Assembly (NCBI RefSeq): GCF_004365575.1
Contig: NZ_SOBG01000001.1
Span: 310,001 to 374,000 of the forward strand
Length of the DNA stretch: 64,000 nucleotides
Origin: Hypnocyclicus thermotrophus
Lineage (GTDB): Bacteria; Fusobacteriota; Fusobacteriia; Fusobacteriales; Fusobacteriaceae
Reading direction: 5' to 3'
Translations under genes and position numbers: made by a program
Part shown: piece after piece, positions 37,545 through 63,960 of the stretch
How positions within the stretch are numbered: the first letter of the stretch is position 1
Layout: every line of letters starts with the position of its first letter
The notes under the pieces: model-generated
What the model saw: only the letters and a program-made list of their open reading frames with translations
Told to the model about the DNA's origin: nothing
Databases searched by the model: none

Positions 37545-37716
37545 ATAAAAAAAACTCTTTCGAATTTGAAAGAGTTTTAATCACAAAACAATCTCTCATC
37601 TTCGAATTATTTTGATTTAAAATCTTAAATCAATAATTCACGGAATTAGCACCACACCAAACAGGTAGGTTGCTGAAGTTTCTAAGGGCCGTTCCCTCCA
37701 CTTCTCTTGATAAGAA
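37545..37716 (-). ncRNA. SAM-I (S-box) riboswitch with terminator controlling metNIQ
   Basis: On the minus strand the leader begins CTTATCAAGAG, then GTGGAGGGAACGGCCC, AAACTTCAGCAACC and GGTGCTAATTCC, and closes with GATGAGAG: the conserved SAM-I core in order. A terminator follows (11-bp stem, 37551-37561 with 37568-37578, then a T-rich tract). High S-adenosylmethionine should favour the terminator and shut off methionine import. Confidence 0.95.
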
Positions 37717-39346: not shown

Positions 39347-41239
39347 TTAATCCAATTTAAATATGCTTAAAAATTTTTCATCTATTGTATCATTTACTAT
39401 TTTTTCTTTAACTAGTATGTTAAAATATTGTTTTACTTTATCTATAAGTTCCTCGCCATCAACATATTTAAAGTTAACTCTATCTAAAAATTCTTCAATT
39501 TTATCTGGAGATTGTCTCATTATATCAAAAGATAATTTAGCAGCCTCTTTTTTATTTTTGATAACCCAATTTATAGCTTCTTTTAGTTCTTCTAATAATA
39601 CTTTTGTTAATTCAGGATGTTTTCTTACAAATTTCCCTTTTAATACTAATCCGGCATTAGGAAAACTTCCAAATCCATTATTTATATCATTCCATATTTT
39701 GTTATATGAAATTATAGAAAAGTTTTCTTTTCTATCTTTCATTGTTTTTATTGCATATGCAGCTTCAGGTTCTCTTAATACTACAGTATCTGCTTTCCCT
39801 GTTATAAAATCTAAATATATTTTTTCTGGTCTTCCAAATGGTTTTCCATATTTAAATTTAAAATCATCTACATTAAAGCCACTAGCTTTTATTAAGTATT
39901 TAGTTATTTTTGCTGGAGGAGCTTCATCAAATAATGGAGTATATATCTCTTTTCCTATTAAATCTTTAAAACTATCAGCTTTATATCTTGTTAAAATTAC
40001 AAAATTATCCCATACAAATAAAGCAGGTATTTTAACATCACTATTTTTCAATTTAGAAGAAGTAATAAGTGCAGAAAAACTTATATCAGCTTTTCCATTA
40101 GCTATCCAACCTAAATGTTTTTCTGTTTCATTCCAAACTTTTAATTCTTTTATATTTATAGATTTCCTTATTTTTTCAGATTGTAATAATTTCATCATAA
40201 CTGGATAAGCAACTGGTGTTGCTGATTGAATTACTACATCTACTTTATCATTTTTTATATTTTCCTTATTTTTTCTTTCTATTTTTTTATGAAAATATAT
40301 CCAGATTTCTTGTTTGTTTTTTTCTTCAATAATATTTTCAAATCCCATTTCACTTAACATGTTAATCATAGGAATAGGATTGAATTTTTGAATTAATATA
40401 AATCCATCATCTTCTTTTAAAGAATATGCTTTTTTAATTATTATATCAAATGGATCTGTTTCCATTTCTCGTACATCTAATATATCAAATTCATTTTTTC
40501 TATCTTTCCAATTTACTTTTTTATCAATTTCTGGATTAAATATTGATATTCTAAATTCTCTATTTTTTTCAATATTATATTTAAAATTTAATCCTTCTAT
40601 CACTTTTAATAATTCTGTTGGGAACTCTACAGATAATATTACTATATTTTCTTGTGGTTTTAATTTTGATGTTTTTTTAATTAATTCTTCTACAGTTTCA
40701 TTATTATAAATAAATCTTTCATTACTTTCTTTCCATGTTATTTTTTCACTTTTCATTTCAAAATCATTGTTATCTTTCATTGCAGTTATACATTCAGGCA
40801 TATTTTCTACTAATTTTTTTTCTACTCCTAAATATTCATTTATTGTATGTAAAATTTCACATATAGAGATACCTGTAACCTTGGCAGCTTCTTTAAAAGT
40901 TACAAATTTTGCTAAAGTATTGTACATAATAGGATTTTGTATTCTTTTAAATTTTGGGGATAATTTTATTAAAACATCTTTTAGATCAGTGTATTTATCT
41001 AATGTATCTTTTACATTTGCATTGGCAAATATTGGATCTATATCTTTTTGTTTTATTTCTATTATAGCATTTACAGGACATATAGATTTTGCTTTTTCAC
41101 ATTTTTTAAGTTCATCATTATTTTTTGGTTGTGAAAACACAAATGCTTTATTTTCTTTATTCATATTAAAATTTTCTTCTGCCACGCCAACACAAGCTCT
41201 ACAACTTATACATTCTTCTGTAACTTTAAATTCTTTCAT
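39347..41239 (-). CDS. Ferredoxin-DUF1858-DUF2249-solute-binding fusion protein
   Basis: 630 aa, no signal peptide, AGGAGG before the ATG. Residues 1-65 are a single [4Fe-4S] ferredoxin (Cys10, 13, 16 and 54). About 75-140 is DUF1858-like (VLIKLSPKFKRIQNPIMYNT ...). About 245-318 is DUF2249-like (ILDVREMETDPFDIII ... QEIWIYFHKK). About 335-630 is an NrtA/SsuA/ThiY-type periplasmic-binding fold (IANGKADISFSALITS, TGKADTVVLREPEAAY). A binding protein normally exported is here joined to a redox domain in what should be the cytoplasm. Role unknown; redox-linked sensing of a small molecule is one possibility. Confidence 0.7.
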   Translation of the reverse strand: MKEFKVTEECISCRACVGVAEENFNMNKENKAFVFSQPKNNDELKKCEKAKSICPVNAIIEIKQKDIDPIFANANVKDTLDKYTDLKDVLIKLSPKFKRIQNPIMYNTLAKFVTFKEAAKVTGISICEILHTINEYLGVEKKLVENMPECITAMKDNNDFEMKSEKITWKESNERFIYNNETVEELIKKTSKLKPQENIVILSVEFPTELLKVIEGLNFKYNIEKNREFRISIFNPEIDKKVNWKDRKNEFDILDVREMETDPFDIIIKKAYSLKEDDGFILIQKFNPIPMINMLSEMGFENIIEEKNKQEIWIYFHKKIERKNKENIKNDKVDVVIQSATPVAYPVMMKLLQSEKIRKSINIKELKVWNETEKHLGWIANGKADISFSALITSSKLKNSDVKIPALFVWDNFVILTRYKADSFKDLIGKEIYTPLFDEAPPAKITKYLIKASGFNVDDFKFKYGKPFGRPEKIYLDFITGKADTVVLREPEAAYAIKTMKDRKENFSIISYNKIWNDINNGFGSFPNAGLVLKGKFVRKHPELTKVLLEELKEAINWVIKNKKEAAKLSFDIMRQSPDKIEEFLDRVNFKYVDGEELIDKVKQYFNILVKEKIVNDTIDEKFLSIFKLD

Positions 41240-41739
41240 TTTCTTTACCTCCTAAGTAAACTTTGTTTTAGATATATATTAGCACATCCTAATATTAAAG
41301 TCAAAGTAAATTATATTTTTTATATTAAAAAATATAATAAAATTAATAGTTTATTTAATTATACTATACAATTTCCTTTATATCTATTTTTCTTTTTTAC
41401 GTTAACATTTTCATTACCGTATTCAACATACATAAAATTATCATTCTTATAAATAAAAATTATTTAAGATAATATTTACTTATAAAATACTATTAGAAAA
41501 AACTAAATATAATAAAGATTATATTTAGTTTGGGATTCTTAAATAAAAATTATTTAAACTAAATTTTATTTAAGAATTTAAATTATGAAGAGATATAGTT
41601 ATTTTTATGTAAAATATATTTTATATATGATTTTTATTAAAAAAATATATTAGATAAAGTACATACTTTTTTATATAATATATATGTAATAATTCTTGTG
41701 TATACACGAAAATATTTAGAAAATGGAGGTAAGTTCAAT
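41240..41739 (+). promoter_or_regulatory. Leader/promoter region of the aconitase operon with hairpins and a palindrome
   Basis: No gene in these 500 bases. Two strong hairpins lack T-runs: 41500-41512 with 41519-41531 (13 bp) and 41535-41548 with 41564-41577 (14 bp). A 17-base string starting AAATAAAAATTATTTAA occurs at 41451 and again at 41541. Close to the gene are a TATAAT (41674-41679) and the palindrome GTGTATACAC (41698-41707), the sort of site bound by GntR-type repressors. Regulation of TCA enzymes is inferred from position only. Confidence 0.45.
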
Positions 41740-43656
41740 ATGGGGATGAGTTTAGCCTATAAGATTTTATCTAAAAATCTTATTAATGGAGAATTAAAAG
41801 CCGGAAATGAAATAGAAGTAAAAGTTAATCAAACGTTAACTCAAGATTCAACAGGTACAATGGTTTATTTGCAATTAGAAGCTATGGGAATAAAAGATAT
41901 AAAAACAGATTTATCTGTAGCATATATTGATCACAATACTTTGCAAGCTGGTTTTGAAAATGCTGATGATCATACATTTATAAAAACAGCTGCAGCAAAA
42001 TATGGAATAATTTTTTCAAAACCTGGAAATGGTATATGTCATCAATTACATTTAGAAAGGTTTGGTAAACCAGGTAATATTTTACTTGGTTCAGATAGCC
42101 ATACTCCAACAGGTGGAGGAATGGGTATGATAGCTATTGGTGCTGGGGGGCTTGATGTAGCTGTAGCTATGGCAAAAGGAAGTTATTTTTTAACTGTACC
42201 TAAAGTATTAAATGTAGAATTAAAAGGTAAATTAAAACCTTGGGTAAGCGCAAAAGATGTAATATTAAAAGTATTACAAGAACTTACAGTTAAAGGCGGA
42301 GTAGGATATATAGTAGAATATACTGGTGAAGGAGTAAAATCACTTTCACTTACAGATAGAGCTACTATTACAAATATGGGAGCTGAACTTGGAGCAACTA
42401 CTTCAATATTTCCAAGTGATGAAATTACTTATGATTTCTTAAAAAGACAAAAAAGAGCTAATGATTATACAGAATTAGCAGCTGATATTGATGCAAATTA
42501 TGATAAAAAAATTGTCATTAATCTAGATGAGTTGAAACCTATGGCAGCATTTCCACATAGTCCAGATGCAGTAAAAGAAATAACAGAAGAAAATAAAATA
42601 AAAGTTGATCAAGTAGCTATCGGTTCTTGTACAAATTCTTCATATACTGATCTTATGAAAGTTGCTGCAATACTAAAAGGGAAAAGAATAAATCCAGATG
42701 TTGATCTAGTAATATCACCTGGTTCAAGTAATATATTAAAAATGATGGCTGATAATGGAGCTCTTGGAGAGCTTATTAGTGCTGGAGCAAGAATTTTAGA
42801 AGCAGCTTGTGGACCATGTATAGGAATGGGACAGGCGCCTAAATCAAATGCTATATCACTTCGTACTTTTAATAGAAATTTTAAGGGCAGATGTGGTACT
42901 AAAAATGCTGATGTTTATTTAGTTTCTCCAGAAGTAGCGGCTGTTTCAGCTCTTGAAGGATATTTAACTAATCCAATGAATTATGGAGAAGCACCTAAAA
43001 TAGAATTACCTAAAGAGTTTCAAGTATATGAAAATTATTTTATATATCCACCTAAAAATAGAGAAGGTCTCGAAGTAATAATGGGACCAAATATTAAACC
43101 ATTTCCATTAAATAATGCTTTAGAAAATAGTATTACTAAAAATGTAATATTAAAAACAGGAGATAATATTACTACAGATGATATTATGCCTTCGAATGCA
43201 AAATTATTACCATTTAGATCAAATATACCAAAATTATCTGAAAGTTGTTTTGCTACAATAGTAGATGATTTTAAAGCAAGGTCAGAAAAATATAATGGTG
43301 GATTTGTAATAGGTGGAGATAATTATGGACAAGGTTCAAGTAGAGAACATGCAGCTTTAGTTCCTTTATATTTAAAAGTAAAAGCTGTTATTGCAAAATC
43401 ATTTGCTAGAATTCATAAAGCAAATCTTATAAATTCAGGGATTTTACCATTAGTATTTGAAAATAAAGAAGATTATAATAATATTGATGAATTTGATGAA
43501 TTAGTACTTAATAATTGTATCGATAGTGTAAAAGCAGGTATATTTACAATAGTAAATAAAACTAAAAATAAAGAGTTTAAAGCTATTTTAGAAGTATCAG
43601 ATAGAGAAAAAGCAATACTTCTTGAAGGTGGATACTTAAACTATGCAAAAAAATAA
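41740..43656 (+). CDS. Aconitate hydratase
   Basis: 638 aa from ATG 41740 (GGAGG ten bases upstream; the longer GTG reading starts inside the palindrome). It has the cluster cysteines in GSCTNSS and GPCIGMGQ, the substrate segment GSDSHTPTGGGMG, and the swivel-domain GDNYGQGSSREHAAL. It interconverts citrate and isocitrate. The length fits the shorter Aquifex-type aconitases rather than the 850-900 aa forms. First gene of acn-icd-citrate synthase. Confidence 0.92.
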   Translation: MGMSLAYKILSKNLINGELKAGNEIEVKVNQTLTQDSTGTMVYLQLEAMGIKDIKTDLSVAYIDHNTLQAGFENADDHTFIKTAAAKYGIIFSKPGNGICHQLHLERFGKPGNILLGSDSHTPTGGGMGMIAIGAGGLDVAVAMAKGSYFLTVPKVLNVELKGKLKPWVSAKDVILKVLQELTVKGGVGYIVEYTGEGVKSLSLTDRATITNMGAELGATTSIFPSDEITYDFLKRQKRANDYTELAADIDANYDKKIVINLDELKPMAAFPHSPDAVKEITEENKIKVDQVAIGSCTNSSYTDLMKVAAILKGKRINPDVDLVISPGSSNILKMMADNGALGELISAGARILEAACGPCIGMGQAPKSNAISLRTFNRNFKGRCGTKNADVYLVSPEVAAVSALEGYLTNPMNYGEAPKIELPKEFQVYENYFIYPPKNREGLEVIMGPNIKPFPLNNALENSITKNVILKTGDNITTDDIMPSNAKLLPFRSNIPKLSESCFATIVDDFKARSEKYNGGFVIGGDNYGQGSSREHAALVPLYLKVKAVIAKSFARIHKANLINSGILPLVFENKEDYNNIDEFDELVLNNCIDSVKAGIFTIVNKTKNKEFKAILEVSDREKAILLEGGYLNYAKK

Positions 43657-43682
43657 AATTAATTTTGATTATTAATTGATAT

Positions 43683-43733
43683 AAAGAAATTCAAAGTTTT
43701 ATAAAATTATTAATACTTTGAATTTCTTTTATA
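43683..43733 (+). terminator. Hairpin between aconitase and isocitrate dehydrogenase genes
   Basis: A 15-bp perfect stem (43683-43697 with 43715-43729) with a weak T-rich tail. It may lower read-through or protect the upstream message rather than fully end it. Confidence 0.6.
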
Positions 43734-43765
43734 TATGAAAAAATAAAAATAAGGGGGATATACGT

Positions 43766-44773
43766 ATGTATAATGTAACTTTAATTCCAGGTGACGGTAT
43801 AGGACCAGAAATAGCCGCGATTACTAAAAAAATAATTGATGCTACAAAAGTAAAAATAAATTGGGAAGAGGTTAACGCTGGAATAGATGTATATGAAAAA
43901 ACAGGAGAATTAGTACCCAATAATGTATTTGAAAGTATCGAAAAAAATAAAATTGCATTAAAAGGGCCTATTACTACTCCTATAGGAAAAGGTTTTAGAA
44001 GTATAAATGTTCAACTTAGAAAAAAATATGATCTATATTCAAATGTTAGAGAAGTAAAAAGCTTTGAAGGAATAAAAAGTAGATATGAAAATATAGATAT
44101 GGTTATATTTAGAGAAAATACAGAAGGTTTATATATAGGTAAAGAAAATAAAATTGATGAAGAAACAGTTGAAGCTATAAAAGTAATTACTAAAAAAGGA
44201 AGTACAAGAATAGTAAAAGCTGCTTTTGAATATGCTAAAAAAAATAATAAAAAAGTTGTTACGGTAGCACATAAAGCCAATATTTTAAAATTTGCTGATG
44301 GGTTATTTTTAAATTGTGCTAGAGAAGTAGCAAAGGACTATCCAGAAATAGAATTAAAAGAAGTAATTATTGATAATATGTGTATGCAAATGGTAATTAA
44401 TCCAAATCAATTTGAAGTAATAGTTACTATGAATTTATATGGGGATATTCTATCTGATTTAGCTGCTGGTTTAATTGGAGGATTAGGTATGGCTCCAGGA
44501 GCTAATATTGGGGAAGATATTGCGATATTTGAAGCTGTTCATGGTAGTGCTCCAGATATTGCCGGTAAAAATTTAGCAAATCCAACTGCACTTCTTTTAT
44601 CTGGAATATCTATGTTAAGATATCTTGGTGAAAATAAAAGAGCAGATATAATATTAACAGCATTAAAAGAAACATTTAAAGAAGGAAAAGTATTAACAAA
44701 AGATTTGGGAGGTAATGCAACTACTACAGAATTTGGAGATTATTTAGTAGATAAAATCTCTGCACTTCTTTAA
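43766..44773 (+). CDS. icd: Isocitrate dehydrogenase (NAD-type, isopropylmalate dehydrogenase family)
   Basis: 335 aa with [11 protein letters not shown], the isocitrate-type phosphate loop [41 protein letters not shown], and the metal/cofactor part [14 protein letters not shown] and [14 protein letters not shown]. The short single-domain form and the [13 protein letters not shown] motif favour isocitrate over isopropylmalate or homoisocitrate. It makes 2-oxoglutarate, probably for glutamate synthesis. GGGGG ribosome site; citrate synthase follows after 14 bases. Confidence 0.88.
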
Positions 44774-44787
44774 AAAAGGAGGTATCT

Positions 44788-46137
44788 ATGATATCAGAAT
44801 CAAATATTAAAACATTAAATAAATTAATAGAACATGCAAAAGAAAATAATAAAATTAATCCTACTTATTATGATCTGTATGATATAAAAAGAGGATTAAG
44901 AAACAATAATGGAACTGGAGTTCTTGTTGGACTTACAGAAGTAGGATCAGTTCATGGATATGTTATTGAAGATGATAAAAAAATACCTCGTGAAGGAAAA
45001 CTTTTTTATAGAGGCATAGAAATAAATGAAATAGTTAATGGTTTCCAAGAAGATAAACGATATGGATTTGAAGAAACTATTTATCTTTTACTTTTTGGAA
45101 AACTTCCAAATAAAAAAGAATTAGACGATTTTAATAAATTATTAGGAAGTATGAGAAATCTTCCATCTGGATTTAATGAAAATTTTATTTTAAAACTTCC
45201 AAGTAAAGATGTAATGAACCTTTTACAAAGAACAATTTTATTTTTATACTCATTAGATGATAATCCAGATGATATATCTATTAATAATATAGTTAAACAA
45301 AGTTTATATCTTATTGCTAGATTCCCTACTATAATAGCTTATGGATATCAAGCAAAAGTTTATAATTATGACAATAAAAGCTTATTTATCCATCCAGCTA
45401 GAGAGGATTATAGTACAGCTGAAAATATACTTCATATGAGTAGAGCTGATTCTAAATTTACAAGAATTGAAGCTGAAGTATTAGATTTATCTTTAGTTAT
45501 GCATGCAGAACATGGTGGAGGAAATAACTCTGCTTTTGCTACACACGTTGTATCATCTAGTGGTACAGACACTTACTCTGCTATTGCTACAGCAGTTGGA
45601 TCATTAAAAGGACCTAAGCATGGTGGTGCAAATATAAAAGTAAGAAATATGATAGATAATATTAAAGAAAATGTAAAAAATTATTCTAATAAAGAAGAAT
45701 TAAAAAAATATCTTAAACAAATTTTAAATAAAGAAGTTTTTGATAAACAAGGTCTTATTTATGGAATGGGACATGCTATTTATACTATTTCTGACCCTAG
45801 AGCAATGTTATTAAAAGAAAAAGCTAGAGAATTGGCTATAGATAAAAATGCTGTAAAAGAATTTGAATTATACGAAAATATTGAATTATTAACTAAAGAA
45901 ATTTTTTTAGAACAAAAAAATAAATTAATTTGTGCTAATGTGGATTTATATTCAGGGTTTGTTTATTCAATGCTTAATATACCACAAGAATTATACACGC
46001 CACTTTTTGCAACAGCTAGAATAGCAAGTTGGTGTGCTCATAGAATCGAACAAATTTTAAGTGATAAAAAAATTATAAGACCTGCTTATAAAAATGTAAG
46101 TAGTATTAATAAATATGTAAAATTAAAAGATAGATAA
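44788..46137 (+). CDS. gltA: Citrate synthase
   Basis: 449 aa. The catalytic trio is visible: first His in GSLKGPKHGGAN, second in YGMGHAIYTISDPRA, Asp in ANVDLYSGFVY; the HAEHGGGNNSAF block is also intact. An N-terminal extension of about 60 residues precedes the canonical fold. It condenses acetyl-CoA and oxaloacetate. With aconitase and isocitrate dehydrogenase this completes the oxidative arm to 2-oxoglutarate; no other TCA enzymes are in the window. GGAGG ribosome site. Confidence 0.93.
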   Translation: MISESNIKTLNKLIEHAKENNKINPTYYDLYDIKRGLRNNNGTGVLVGLTEVGSVHGYVIEDDKKIPREGKLFYRGIEINEIVNGFQEDKRYGFEETIYLLLFGKLPNKKELDDFNKLLGSMRNLPSGFNENFILKLPSKDVMNLLQRTILFLYSLDDNPDDISINNIVKQSLYLIARFPTIIAYGYQAKVYNYDNKSLFIHPAREDYSTAENILHMSRADSKFTRIEAEVLDLSLVMHAEHGGGNNSAFATHVVSSSGTDTYSAIATAVGSLKGPKHGGANIKVRNMIDNIKENVKNYSNKEELKKYLKQILNKEVFDKQGLIYGMGHAIYTISDPRAMLLKEKARELAIDKNAVKEFELYENIELLTKEIFLEQKNKLICANVDLYSGFVYSMLNIPQELYTPLFATARIASWCAHRIEQILSDKKIIRPAYKNVSSINKYVKLKDR

Positions 46138-57910: not shown

Positions 57911-60900
57911 TTATTCATCTACTGATTGTACTTCAAAATCATTTTGAGAATCTCCTACTATTTTTACTTTACTAGTTCTGCTTCTAGAGCTTTCTTCACT
58001 TTTACCTATAATTTCAAAATCAGCTTTTGGTACAAATCCTTCTATTTGGAATCCACTTCCAAGGCTATTAGATAAATTATCTAATATATCTAATTTAAAT
58101 GTAATTCTACCTCCAGCTACATCTTTATGATTACTTATATTTAATGCTATTACTTTTACTTCCCCATCAAGTAACTCATTATTTTTTATCTTAGTTTTAT
58201 ATGTTTCGTAATTATTTATATCAACTGTATATTCAAATGTTGTATTTTCACCTAGAATTTTTTCAACACCTTCATCTGTATATTTAAGATCTGTTACTTT
58301 TACACCTTTTATTCTTACCTCTTTTATTATTATTTTCCATAATTTTGTATAATCTTTCATATTACTAGCATCTAATATTAGTGTATAATTCGTTCCTGAT
58401 TTATAATCAATATATATTTTAAAATTATTTATAGGATTACTATCAAATTTATTATCTTTTAATATTTTTAAATTTCCTAATGTTGAAGCTTTTGAATCTA
58501 CAGTTATACTATCTGATGTTATAAATGTTTTTTCATATCCAGAAGTAGAATAAAGAGTTATTTTTGAAATATTATTCATACCATTATCTACTGTAATGTC
58601 TTTATTAATAAAATTTGTAATAGTATAATTTTTATTGTTTATTGTTATTATTGCTTTTGATAAATCTACATTGTCACCATTACTATTTTTACCATTTATA
58701 GTAAAATATATTTTATTTTTTATTATTTTAAACTCTTCATCCATTATTTGTTCTATAAAATTAGTAGAATCTGCTGAATTTTCCATATCAGATGTAAGAG
58801 TTATATCAATGTTTTCTATAATTTCATTATTATATGTAATAGTTTGAGTTAAATTGCTCTCTGAAGATTTTGCTGAGTTTCCTGCTTTATCTATTACTTC
58901 TATATCAAACTCTATCTCCTGTCTTCCAATAAGTTCTTTTATTAATTCTTTTTCTTGAATAAGCTTAAATTGCTCAATAACTTTATTATTTTCTGTAATT
59001 TCACTTATATTATCTTTAAAATCTATTTTATTTTGTTCGTATTCAAGTGATGTTTCTAAATCAGGATTAGTTAATAATATATAATTTTCTTTATTAAAAG
59101 ATAATTTATTATCTTTTACAGTAAGATTTATATTAAATTTATCTCCTACTTTAAAATCTGTAAAATCTGTATTAGTTATTTTTTCAATAGTAAAATCAGT
59201 TATAACTGGTGCTATTGTATCCATATAGTATACACTATTTAATACTCCTTCTGTGTTATTATTATATTCTTCTAATAATTTATTTTTAAAATTAACAGCA
59301 GTTACTACCTTATTAGCTATTTTCCCAGTTTTACTTATTGTTACTATTTTTTTAATCTGATATTTTCCATCTAAAGAATTACTCTCTTTTATTTTATCTG
59401 TACTTATACTGAGTTCATTAGAGTTTGTTGCATTCCAATAGATATTATTAGTTAAATCTATATCTTTACTAGATAAAATATTTGTTTTAGTTTCTATCAA
59501 ATCTGATTCTGTTTGATCATAATTATATAAAGCTATATAACCTATAGTATCTATATCACCCCCTATTATATCAATACTTCCGGCATCATTTAAGTAATAT
59601 TCACCTTCTATAGGCTCTAAAGGCGTTGTTCCTTTTTTATATTTTGAAATTTCTCCGTATTTTGCAGTATCACTTTTATTTTTTATTACTTTTATTTTCA
59701 CTATTTCATTATTATATATTTTTCCACTAATATATGTTTCTTCTTCTATATCATCTGTTATTTCTATATTATAGATTAAATCTACTGTTCCATTATTATT
59801 ATTTTTTGATTTAACAAAAGTAATTTTATCTAGTCCACTTAATGTTAATCCAAAAGGTTTTTCATTTATAGTTATAATACTATCAGCATCTAAAGTTATT
59901 TTTAGTTCTGCTACATTTCCATTATTCATATAAAAATTATCTGTTATATTACTATTAGAACTTGTTACTGAAGTATATTTTATTATATCATTAGTACTAA
60001 ATACTTTTAACTTTTCAAAAAGTTCTTTATTCGTATTATTTGTAATAGTAGTACTTTTTAATTCAGGCATAAAGTATATATTTTCTAATATTTTTTGTTC
60101 TCTTAATCCATTTTTATTTTCTACATATGCGTATACATTATATATTTCACCTTTATTTAAATTTGATTCAGGTATATTAAATGTAAATGGATATTGCGTA
60201 TCAATAGTACCATTTTGTATATTATTATAACTATTTTTATCTACATATACTATATCTCCTTTTGAATTTTTTATTGCTATCCAAATTCTACTTAAATCTG
60301 TGTACTTATCTTTTGCCCAACCATTAATTTTTATTAAATTATTTTCTACTTTAAATATTCTATTTGTTGCATCTTCATTAGGTGTTGTAATATGTATTTC
60401 AAGAGTTTTTAGTACTGGTTCTATATAAATTCTATTACTATTTTCTGTTACATCTTCAAGTTGTTTTGTTAATACTGCATCACTTCCGGTATCAAGTGTT
60501 AAATTTAAATCAAAATATACTTTTCTATTTTTCCCTTCTTCATAGATATCATCATTAAAAGGTGTTGTATATTTTAAATCCCATCTTTGAATTATCCCTA
60601 ATTTTTTTGCATCTTCTACTAAATATGATTTTAACAATGTAGTGTTACTAGTAATATAATGCCAAGAAATATCTAATCCTGGTTGATTTCTAAAATCAGT
60701 ATATGGTCTTACAGATGAGGAGCTTCTATTATTAGCTATTAATGAAAAATAAATATTATTATTTTTCATTTTTTCAGATAATTTTTCTATTACATCATTA
60801 TATGTATAACCTAATTTATTAATTCGCGGTCCTGCGTCTAAACCTTCATCTGTTGGCATAATAATCCATTTCTTAGATTTTAATATTATATCATTTTTAT

Positions 60901-63823
60901 TTGAAGTTATATTACCGTATTTATCAAGACCTCTTCCATAATCTTCAAAACGTTTTATTGCATAATGCAACGCCCAAGCTCCATTACCTTGAATACCTGT
61001 TACTCCATCCCAATAAATACTACTTCCTCTTACACCATTAGCGCCTACTTGTTTTATTGCTTGTTGTACTATTGAAAGATCATCAAACCATCCATCTCCA
61101 GTTCCTTCATCATTTCCTTTATATACAGTTAGATAATATTCTCCATTTCTAACCATTCTTCCTGATGTTTTTCTAAAAATTTTTCTTTTTAAAATTTTAT
61201 ATATATTATTTGGATCAGCTTTTTCTTGTACAAAATTACGATAATATTCTCTAAAATATACTTCACCATAATTTCTTTTCTTTGCTGGTGATGGTACATC
61301 TACTATATGTGATGAACGATAGGTATTCCAACTACTATCTTTATAATCAAATTGATCATATCTAATAGCTCCTTCTAGTACACCATTTCCATATCCTATT
61401 GTTGATTTAACTTTAAAATCATCTTTTCCATCATTTGTTTCAGGTACAAATTTTATTCTATTAGTATCACTATTTGAACCATTTAAAAGCCAAGCATCTT
61501 GAGGTGCTTCAAATGAAATAATATTAAATTTTACATCAAATCCATTTGACTCAAGCAAGGCTACTATATCGCTTAAACTATCTTTTACAGCTGCTAATTC
61601 TTGACTCATTGATGCAGACCCATCAGCCATAATTATAACATCAAGAGGATATTTAAGTCCCATTTTATTAGATTTAGTTATAGTTGAAACTTTCCCTAAT
61701 TTCTCTTCTGTTTCTCTTATTTCTTTTATATAACCTATTTCTCCATTTTCATTAGATAAAATATTATCTGTAGTTAATGAAAGTTGTTTAGGTGCTTTTG
61801 TAAAAAAGTCTACATTTATTACTGGATATGAAGATTTATCTATACTATTTATCATATAAATATTATTTGCTGTTGCATTACTTCCTTCATCTATTGCTGG
61901 TTTTCCTGAGGTAAAAACAGCTGTTGTTTCTAAATTATATATATCATAATCTCCATTTTCATCACTATATTCTGTATATATTTCAATTACAAATTCTTCA
62001 TTTATAGGTAATCCTTGAATTACAAAATTTTCTGGTGAATATATAAATGTCATATTCCCATATTCAGCTTTTTTATTATATACATAATAATTAAATTCGA
62101 TATCTACATAATCTATTTTATTATCTATAAAATCTTGATAATTTTCTTGTGATAATAAATTTTTATTATATGTTTTATTATAAACATCGTATTTATATTT
62201 AGTTTGATTATTTCTATAAAGTCTAAACATGATTTTTTGATTATTAAAATATTTAGCATATTTATTTGCTTCTATTTTCTTCCAAGTTATATTTACTAAA
62301 TCACTATTTTGATTTAATTTAATATTATTTAGCTTTAATGGGTAATAAATATCTATAAGTTTATTTTTTAATGAATCTTTTAATGTTAATTTAGACACAT
62401 TTGTAACATTATCTATACCTTCCATTACATCTTTATTTATAAATATATCACTTCCTGCACTACTACCCTTAAAATACCATTTTGAATTATATTCAATATA
62501 ATCGTTAACTAAGTTATAGCTTAAGTTCTCTACATCTAAAGAATTTATCGTTCTTATTGCTTGAATAGTTGAACTATTATCATCTTCTAAATACGATAAA
62601 TCTGTAAAATCTTTATCGATATATTTAGAAGCATGAAAAACTATAGTCTGATCTCTATCAGCATCTCTAGGTTCAGCAATAATAAGTTCTGGTATTATTG
62701 GTCCTGTTATTTCAATATCTCCTTTTCCTTTTATATATGAATTACCTGTTAAATATAAATTTTTTGAAATAACACTTCCTTCTATCCTTGCACTTCCAGT
62801 TAAATTTACATCTGCATTTGGAGCATATATATAATTTATTGGAGATACCCCTCCGTTTATAGTTACATTTTGACCTGATGTCACTATTCCATATTCAAGA
62901 CTAGCACTTCCAGTTATATTTATATTAGTATTATTTGCATAAATTTTACCAGTTGTTACGGCGTTTCCATTAATTGTTAACTCATTTCCTTTTGTTATTA
63001 ATTCGTTAAAATCTATTTTTGCACTACCTGATATATTTATATCAGCTTGTTCTACATACAAAAAACCTTGTATTTCTATCGCATTAGCTAGATTAAGGGG
63101 TGCAGTTCCTAAATAATAGTAATAAATATAGCTATTATCATTTTTACTATCTATAATTTTACCATTTGACTTCAAATCAAATGTAGTCGTTACTATAAAA
63201 AATAATCTCCCTGTACCGTTTCTATTTATTATAACATCTCCACTGATATCTAATTTGTCAACTTTTATATATAAATCATTATTTCCAACATTAATAATCA
63301 TTTTATCTTTAACAGTAATATTCTTGTAATATCCACTATCTTCTGAATTAATTGTCACATCATTATTATAATCTTCATATATATCTTCTTGAGAATATAA
63401 ACCATCTACTACTGGTGTTTTAAAATCTAACCAATCTGGTATATCAAAGCTATATTGTTTGTTTAACTTAGATATCGTATTATTTTTTACATTATTATAA
63501 AATTCTTGTTGTTCTATACTTCCTGTTTTATACCAATCTGGGAAATTAATTATATCGTCTGCTATTGCTGTATTTCCTATATAAATAGAGCGATAGTTTA
63601 ATTTTGTATCTCCAATCCAAGAAGTACCTTCTAAAAGTATAGGTTTTTCTCCCTGTATTAAGCTATTTGCATTGCTTCCTGTCATTCCTTCAATTCTAGA
63701 TGAACCTGTTAAATTTACAATCCCTTCAATTGAAAAAGCAGTCCAATCTTTTACTATAATATTTTCAGCAAAAGTAAATGCAGTCATAAAAATGAATATC
63801 AATCCCACTATTTTCTTCTTCAT
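57911..63823 (-). CDS. Large exported surface protein with von Willebrand A domain
   Basis: 1970 aa from ATG 63823 (GGAAGGTG upstream; a TTG reading six codons longer includes that site). Signal peptide KIVGLIFIFMTAFTFA. Residues about 20-390 have repeated beta units with GSARIEG/GSAKID/GSASLE, like a beta-helix (DUF7305-type). A vWA domain with MIDAS motif MADGSASMS starts near 725 and extends with a large insert to about 1120. The remaining 850 residues are Ig-like or cadherin-like beta repeats. No sorting signal or membrane anchor is seen at the C-terminus. An adhesion or surface-assembly role is inferred. Confidence 0.8.
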   Translation of the reverse strand: MKKKIVGLIFIFMTAFTFAENIIVKDWTAFSIEGIVNLTGSSRIEGMTGSNANSLIQGEKPILLEGTSWIGDTKLNYRSIYIGNTAIADDIINFPDWYKTGSIEQQEFYNNVKNNTISKLNKQYSFDIPDWLDFKTPVVDGLYSQEDIYEDYNNDVTINSEDSGYYKNITVKDKMIINVGNNDLYIKVDKLDISGDVIINRNGTGRLFFIVTTTFDLKSNGKIIDSKNDNSYIYYYYLGTAPLNLANAIEIQGFLYVEQADINISGSAKIDFNELITKGNELTINGNAVTTGKIYANNTNINITGSASLEYGIVTSGQNVTINGGVSPINYIYAPNADVNLTGSARIEGSVISKNLYLTGNSYIKGKGDIEITGPIIPELIIAEPRDADRDQTIVFHASKYIDKDFTDLSYLEDDNSSTIQAIRTINSLDVENLSYNLVNDYIEYNSKWYFKGSSAGSDIFINKDVMEGIDNVTNVSKLTLKDSLKNKLIDIYYPLKLNNIKLNQNSDLVNITWKKIEANKYAKYFNNQKIMFRLYRNNQTKYKYDVYNKTYNKNLLSQENYQDFIDNKIDYVDIEFNYYVYNKKAEYGNMTFIYSPENFVIQGLPINEEFVIEIYTEYSDENGDYDIYNLETTAVFTSGKPAIDEGSNATANNIYMINSIDKSSYPVINVDFFTKAPKQLSLTTDNILSNENGEIGYIKEIRETEEKLGKVSTITKSNKMGLKYPLDVIIMADGSASMSQELAAVKDSLSDIVALLESNGFDVKFNIISFEAPQDAWLLNGSNSDTNRIKFVPETNDGKDDFKVKSTIGYGNGVLEGAIRYDQFDYKDSSWNTYRSSHIVDVPSPAKKRNYGEVYFREYYRNFVQEKADPNNIYKILKRKIFRKTSGRMVRNGEYYLTVYKGNDEGTGDGWFDDLSIVQQAIKQVGANGVRGSSIYWDGVTGIQGNGAWALHYAIKRFEDYGRGLDKYGNITSNKNDIILKSKKWIIMPTDEGLDAGPRINKLGYTYNDVIEKLSEKMKNNNIYFSLIANNRSSSSVRPYTDFRNQPGLDISWHYITSNTTLLKSYLVEDAKKLGIIQRWDLKYTTPFNDDIYEEGKNRKVYFDLNLTLDTGSDAVLTKQLEDVTENSNRIYIEPVLKTLEIHITTPNEDATNRIFKVENNLIKINGWAKDKYTDLSRIWIAIKNSKGDIVYVDKNSYNNIQNGTIDTQYPFTFNIPESNLNKGEIYNVYAYVENKNGLREQKILENIYFMPELKSTTITNNTNKELFEKLKVFSTNDIIKYTSVTSSNSNITDNFYMNNGNVAELKITLDADSIITINEKPFGLTLSGLDKITFVKSKNNNNGTVDLIYNIEITDDIEEETYISGKIYNNEIVKIKVIKNKSDTAKYGEISKYKKGTTPLEPIEGEYYLNDAGSIDIIGGDIDTIGYIALYNYDQTESDLIETKTNILSSKDIDLTNNIYWNATNSNELSISTDKIKESNSLDGKYQIKKIVTISKTGKIANKVVTAVNFKNKLLEEYNNNTEGVLNSVYYMDTIAPVITDFTIEKITNTDFTDFKVGDKFNINLTVKDNKLSFNKENYILLTNPDLETSLEYEQNKIDFKDNISEITENNKVIEQFKLIQEKELIKELIGRQEIEFDIEVIDKAGNSAKSSESNLTQTITYNNEIIENIDITLTSDMENSADSTNFIEQIMDEEFKIIKNKIYFTINGKNSNGDNVDLSKAIITINNKNYTITNFINKDITVDNGMNNISKITLYSTSGYEKTFITSDSITVDSKASTLGNLKILKDNKFDSNPINNFKIYIDYKSGTNYTLILDASNMKDYTKLWKIIIKEVRIKGVKVTDLKYTDEGVEKILGENTTFEYTVDINNYETYKTKIKNNELLDGEVKVIALNISNHKDVAGGRITFKLDILDNLSNSLGSGFQIEGFVPKADFEIIGKSEESSRSRTSKVKIVGDSQNDFEVQSVDE

Positions 63824-63960
63824 AATATCACACCTTCCCAAATAATTCTTTTTTTGTATTCCAATACTAAATTCGAACTATTATTTTTATTTTTTCCATA
63901 TTTTTTATCATAAAAGTCTCTTTAAATAATAACATATTGCTCTTAAAAAGTCTATAAAAA

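Follow-up and report, generated by a model that had tools for sequence, protein, structure and literature searches.

The locus studied here raises the question of what a cytosolic protein might do that joins a ferredoxin and a DUF1858/DUF2249 middle to a ligand-binding-type fold. In the window, as we call the whole stretch of 64,000 nucleotides that was analysed, this protein is encoded by a single ORF (39347-41239, minus strand, ATG start, 630 aa). A gap of 458 bp (41240-41697), given as about 500 bases in a preliminary description, separates it from the aconitase ORF, which is divergent as described there. From N to C terminus, the chain comprises a single-[4Fe-4S] ferredoxin, DUF1858, a degenerate DUF2249, DUF2249, and a PBP fold of the NMT1/SsuA group. 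The features of the gene and its upstream region are as follows:

39347..41239, minus strand: whole gene, 630 aa, without signal peptide (ORF listing)
41063..41221, minus strand: ferredoxin domain, aa 7-59, CxxCxxC...CP with Cys10, 13, 16 and 54, single [4Fe-4S] type (Fer4_13, E 5e-13)
40853..41023, minus strand: DUF1858, aa 73-129 (E 4e-12, above the Pfam cut-off)
40532..40747, minus strand: degenerate first DUF2249-like domain, about aa 165-236 (alignment with ferredoxin-less relatives)
40298..40480, minus strand: DUF2249, aa 254-314 (E 2.9e-5, 24.2 vs 29.5 bits, just under the cut-off)
39350..40246, minus strand: PBP-fold ligand-binding-type domain of NMT1/SsuA type, aa 332-630 (Pfam, alignment, structural model)
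41276..41304, minus strand: putative promoter TTGACT-N17-TAATAT, kept in L027/G062
41276-41295, minus strand: palindrome ATATTAG-N6-CTAATAT over the spacer and -10 of this putative promoter, kept in L027/G062

Pfam searches and an alignment of relatives (30 rows; the truncated or broken L035, L050, L076, L088 and L089 excluded) bore out the domain order of the preliminary description. The Fer4_13 match lies above the Pfam cut-off in the window protein and recurs in 26/30 aligned relatives (E<=0.01, as for the other domains); Cys10, Cys13 and Cys16 are kept in 26/26 rows having a residue there and Cys54 in 26/27, and the domain carries the CxxCxxC...CP motif of a predicted single [4Fe-4S] cluster. 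DUF1858 is present in all 30 relatives, and the family-wide residues are Cys127 (29/30 rows), His131, and Cys150 (29/29 rows) just past this domain. The tandem DUF2249 of the window protein consists of one sub-threshold Pfam match and one degenerate copy recognised by alignment only: the latter, absent from the preliminary description, gives no Pfam match in the window protein and aligns with the first of two DUF2249 in ferredoxin-less relatives, both of which Pfam detects in L085. DUF2249 recurs in 29/30 relatives and NMT1 (aa 373-566, E 7.6e-4, 19.9 vs 20.5 bits, just under the cut-off) in 17/30, and because of this recurrence we regard both sub-cut-off matches as real.

No NCBIfam model came near its cut-off on the whole chain; membership of a curated family spanning the chain was therefore ruled out, and no single characterised family emerged. 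The earlier statement that no standard protein has such an order holds for the full chain but is too strong for its core of DUF1858 and an apparently twofold DUF2249, the make-up of Thermus DrpB as described in the available text of PMC6282519. As previously noted, a signal peptide is missing from the 630-aa protein, as is a lipobox, the ferredoxin starting the chain directly, and no hydrophobic or membrane segment was found (highest 19-residue Kyte-Doolittle mean, 1.38). Structure prediction of the whole chain from three sequences gave a mean pLDDT of 43.

A model of the C-terminal domain from four sequences (mean pLDDT 55, low confidence) matched the PBP-fold structures SsuA, TauA and Thi5 in Foldseek (E ~1e-12 at the top; best matches Thi5 and SsuA), with structural Z-scores of 13.2 for 3uif, 11.0 for 9uak and 10.7 for 9uai, and it also matched the cytoplasmic CmpC regulatory domain. 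As modelled, this part is a type II PBP fold, in agreement with the binding fold claimed beforehand and not with a fold of another kind. It is the most conserved part of the protein, with 28% of its columns conserved at >=95% compared to 24% for DUF1858 and 23% for the ferredoxin, and its invariant charged residues include K374, H375, R470 and R489. Its sequence is weakly similar to SsuA and Thi5. The protein has the fold of the SsuA/TauA/NMT1 binding proteins but neither their signal-type N-terminus nor their ABC partners: no permease or ATPase genes of its own lie beside the window gene, the nearby ABC genes looking metNIQ-like with their own binding protein. An ABC importer component was ruled out on these grounds. 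The catalytic motif of THI5/HMP synthase is CCCFC, and a Thi5-type enzyme was likewise ruled out, since the stretch aligned to this motif is Cys-free. A SAM riboswitch (Rfam RF00162, 81.7 bits; window 37593-37716, minus strand) lies ahead of the minus-strand metNIQ-like operon.

Searches for relatives revealed that, in Fusobacteriota, full-length ones occur in 2 of the 98 genomes searched, namely the window genome (G000) and G062 (76% identical). The other 15 matches in that search were binding proteins of 24–28% identity, which sit with ABC transporter genes at the three such loci read (L003, L004, L006). Two Bacteroidota MAGs carry full-length relatives that are 66% (L018) and 62% (L019) identical. 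Matches were found in 2/395 genomes in the phylum of L018 at E<=1e-60, 4/164 in the order of G109 (two full length), 29/344 in one Bacteroidota order, that of G099 (a count that takes in the query genome itself and some truncated copies), and 2/391 in a Clostridia sample, the class of the Eubacteriaceae MAG G100 (one full length); the viral contigs scanned contained none. In a phylogenetic tree, the window and G062 sequences grouped as a clade (100/100) that lay among those of Bacteroidota; the deeper forks were not resolved, and horizontal transfer is likely. A diverged relative without ferredoxin (L034, 8016-9608, minus strand) has no DUF2249 match and is 45% identical over aa 250-609.

Both known systems and, as described below, the surroundings of relatives point to nitrogen oxides. 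In the available text of PMC6282519, Thermus thermophilus DrpB (DUF1858 and two DUF2249) is proposed as a nitrate-sensing component: loss of DrpAB abolishes the response of nar expression to nitrate and reduces the activity of nitrate reductase, the sensing being a proposal without a ligand site. The window protein resembles DrpB in the order of its apparent three-domain core, the first DUF2249 of which is degenerate, in its putative link to nitrogen-oxide respiration and in its cytoplasmic side, but it adds the N-terminal ferredoxin and the C-terminal PBP domain, and its lineage has neither NorB nor a DrpA-type partner (a single DUF2249 protein), the target gene being the sole DUF2249 match in G000 and G062. 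Given the missing partner and the two added domains, we do not file the protein as DrpB. According to the available parts of the respective sources, a DUF1858 protein belongs to the NnrR regulon of B. diazoefficiens (PMC6710368), and DUF2249 proteins rise during haloarchaeal denitrification (PMC11218638). The ferredoxin-DUF1858-DUF2249-PBP architecture does not appear in the available portions of these two papers or of PMC6282519, and a literature search pairing DUF1858, NMT1 and ferredoxin returned nothing relevant. A PBP fold kept cytoplasmic is also seen in NrtC/CmpC (PDB 9uak, 9uai), where it is regulatory and putatively nitrate-sensing; the accessible text of PMC6603209 describes a putative nitrate-binding site in the NrtC C-terminal domain. 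Unlike NrtC/CmpC, in which the fold is fused to an ABC ATPase, the window protein has it fused to redox domains, without a transporter.

We surveyed the neighbourhoods of relatives at 35 loci (528 kb), some of which are short contigs. The gene for quinol-type NO reductase, norB, adjoins the target or lies one or two genes away at four of them (L026, L033, L075, L079); an Rrf2 gene stands beside norB at three of the four, L033 ending at a contig edge, and the order at L075 is rrf2, norB, hemerythrin-PAS, target. These Rrf2 proteins exceed the superfamily cut-off only and not that of NsrR, so that "NsrR-like" would denote context and not assignment. At a Clostridia locus, a DUF438-hemerythrin-PAS gene (L151, 7660-8895, plus strand) lies about 6 kb from a truncated relative. 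At 7/35 loci (L065-L069, L090, L091), the target shares its operon with two ferredoxin-MinD ATPases, NifX-like proteins, a cupin and a permease-like 344-aa gene, an arrangement that recalls the ORP/MrpORP system as it appears in the available text of PMC6345978; no such operon was seen near the window gene on reading the ORFs. A multihaem cytochrome gene is near the target at L066/L067, and a MIP18-like gene, named from its sequence only, at some loci.

The relatives without ferredoxin revealed a split version of the protein. In all four (L085-L087, L143), hcp follows downstream in the orientation of the core gene, with one ORF between the core gene and hcp at L085, and a separate 62-aa ferredoxin gene ends 35–74 bp ahead of the core gene at the 3/3 readable split loci, its product being homologous to the N-terminus of the window protein (36–40% identical). 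Since the pair is separate in these relatives and fused in the window protein, a joint function of ferredoxin and core is very probable. A Crp/Fnr-type gene lies upstream on the opposite strand, and GTAAC-N4-GTTAC is found about 80 bp before the ferredoxin start at 3/3 split loci with readable upstream DNA. This box corresponds to GTAACnnnnGTTAC, which Rodionov et al. 2005 (PMC1274295) published as the consensus of HcpR2; the available text of that paper reports that in Desulfovibrio both hcp and frdX, a ferredoxin-like gene, are regulated by HcpR, and its HcpR account, as far as available, contains no core plus PBP protein. The split relatives resemble the HcpR regulon in that an HcpR box precedes their ferredoxin and core genes and hcp, whereas the window gene is without one. 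The box precedes hcp twice in G000 and also in G062. At hcp of the window genome (L141, 4474-4616), two copies of GTAACAAATGTTAC precede the gene, each within the same longer repeat.

The window promoter, which contains neither the HcpR box nor the AATACC-N8-GGTATT palindrome described below, is kept with its own palindrome in L027, while DNA farther upstream has diverged. The 21-bp core has one exact match per genome in G000 and G062, at the target gene. Two-mismatch matches (forward/reverse) numbered 42/45 in G000 and 27/31 in G062, whereas the reversed pattern gave 8/17 and 13/10; the two-mismatch matches were too many to read, and with the exact match confined to the target, a regulon of this palindrome was dropped.

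Across the 35 loci, AATACC-N8-GGTATT has nine exact sites, all before the target gene or its operon: eight lie 71–201 bp before the gene, and the ninth (L079) lies between the rrf2-norB operon and a divergent operon ending in the target. One-mismatch sites occur at -71 (L090) and -72 (L084) of the target, and four more inside other genes. As the motif was chosen from these upstream regions, its enrichment there is no independent test. The nine whole genomes carrying the motif contain 21 distinct sites, compared to 4 for the reversed control. Among the off-target sites read (all except one in G672 and two in G875), three lie where genes converge, close to a glycosyltransferase-like gene (L096, L104, L106), three are inside genes (L094, L099, L105), and one lies between two divergent genes without a clear link (L108). 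The sites at L092, ahead of a gene with two DUF2249 beside a COX1-like gene, and L093, before FeoAB, look regulatory. Both at L092 (1501-3018), behind the palindrome, and at L028 (10684-12724), the gene with two DUF2249 is followed by one for a COX1-like membrane protein.

Co-occurrence was counted in 54 genomes, comprising 2 from the phylum of the window, Bacteroidota carriers with (28) and without (4) the fused ferredoxin, and 20 non-carriers, with the diverged L034 and L035, one of them truncated, left out. NorB was found in 0/2, 17/28, 0/4 and 3/20 of these, respectively, and Hcp in 2/2, 0/28, 4/4 and 6/20. Compared to non-carriers, which were the first 20 listed without a match and not a random draw, fused carriers more often have NorB and less often Hcp (Fisher p 0.003 each), and ferredoxin-less carriers are enriched in Hcp (p 0.02), with kinship ignored in all three tests and completeness uncertain for carriers and non-carriers alike. 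By these counts, NorB accompanies the fused form and Hcp the split form. The window lineage encodes Hcp but no NorB, and neither enzyme is present in 11 of the 28 fused carriers.

Because its relatives adjoin genes for removing toxic nitric oxide, the window protein probably belongs to nitric-oxide defence, as a sensor or accessory not described before. More specifically, we tentatively favour, with a confidence somewhat short of even, a DrpB-like protein of the cytosol that responds to nitrogen oxides and has ligand-binding and redox modules of its own. This reading draws on the DrpB-type core, norB and rrf2 near the target, hcp and the HcpR box at the split loci, the placement of all nine exact palindromes, one of them common to rrf2-norB, the frequency of NorB in fused carriers, and the NrtC/CmpC precedents. 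Against it stand the lack of NorB and of a DrpA-type partner in G000 and G062, a window promoter with neither motif, the absence of Hcp from the 28 ferredoxin-fused Bacteroidota carriers, the 11 carriers with neither enzyme, the seven loci in the MrpORP-like operon, the off-target palindromes at convergent gene ends and inside genes, and the low-confidence structural model. In the proposed mechanism, the PBP-fold domain would bind a small ligand in the cytosol, most likely an anion and presumably a nitrogen oxide (nitrate, nitrite or NO), and then close; the [4Fe-4S] ferredoxin would report redox or NO state, or exchange an electron; and the DUF1858/DUF2249 middle, with Cys127/His131/Cys150, would pass the combined state to a partner, either a regulator or the NO reductase/Hcp machinery. 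The window gene would share the role of its relatives. The preliminary suggestion of ligand sensing with redox output fits this best-supported reading, which ties it to nitrogen oxides through the relatives; the other suggestion, electron donation to a bound substrate, found no support of its own.

Two other roles are conceivable. The protein could be an electron-transfer accessory whose fused ferredoxin feeds an enzyme that consumes NO, be it Hcp, NO reductase or a multihaem cytochrome, with the PBP domain docking or gating and not sensing. The one-direction ferredoxin-core-hcp arrangement, the reported HcpR control of hcp and frdX, and the cytochrome gene at L066/L067 are consistent with this; however, Hcp is missing from all 28 ferredoxin-fused Bacteroidota carriers, quinol-type NorB needs no ferredoxin, and conservation is highest in the PBP domain, not the ferredoxin, so that we consider this role rather unlikely. 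A factor for repair or assembly of Fe-S or other metal clusters, in which the PBP and ferredoxin domains would carry a precursor of the cluster for use once NO has done damage, is suggested by the seven MinD/NifX-like operons and the MIP18-like gene, but the other 28 loci, some of them short contigs, and the window itself are without that operon, and we rate it as less probable again.

A role of NMT1/THI5 kind, as an enzyme or transporter part in pyrimidine precursor synthesis or sulfonate uptake with a ferredoxin fused by chance, would account for the weak similarity to SsuA and Thi5 and for the best Foldseek matches. It is highly improbable given the missing signal peptide and ABC genes, the Cys-free stretch at the CCCFC position, and genomic contexts of relatives that point to NO.

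The nitrogen-oxide response reading, if true, would add an unnamed member to the nitric-oxide defence of anaerobes. The family joins a DrpB-type module to a ligand-binding-type fold and a redox domain in a soluble protein, and such a purifiable protein would make ligand and redox state directly measurable. A new class of one-chain soluble nitrogen-oxide sensors in anaerobes, with a PBP fold transferred to the cytosol reading the anion, the ferredoxin reading redox or NO, and the DrpB module integrating the two, is conceivable but doubtful; it would also imply that the DUF1858/DUF2249 module serves generally in nitrogen-oxide signalling.

The closest relative, L027 (76%), adjoins a carbamoyl-phosphate-synthase-like gene, named from its sequence, rather than aconitase; the aconitase linkage, not being common to both, was dropped, and this neighbourhood of the window gene is probably incidental. 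Divergent from the target, aconitase-, isocitrate-dehydrogenase- and citrate-synthase-like genes, likewise named by sequence reading, stand in a row (window 41698-46137, plus strand), and AT-rich inverted repeats are visible by eye in the intergenic DNA before the aconitase gene (41511-41600). At the end of the window lies an ORF of 1976 aa (57911-63841, minus strand).
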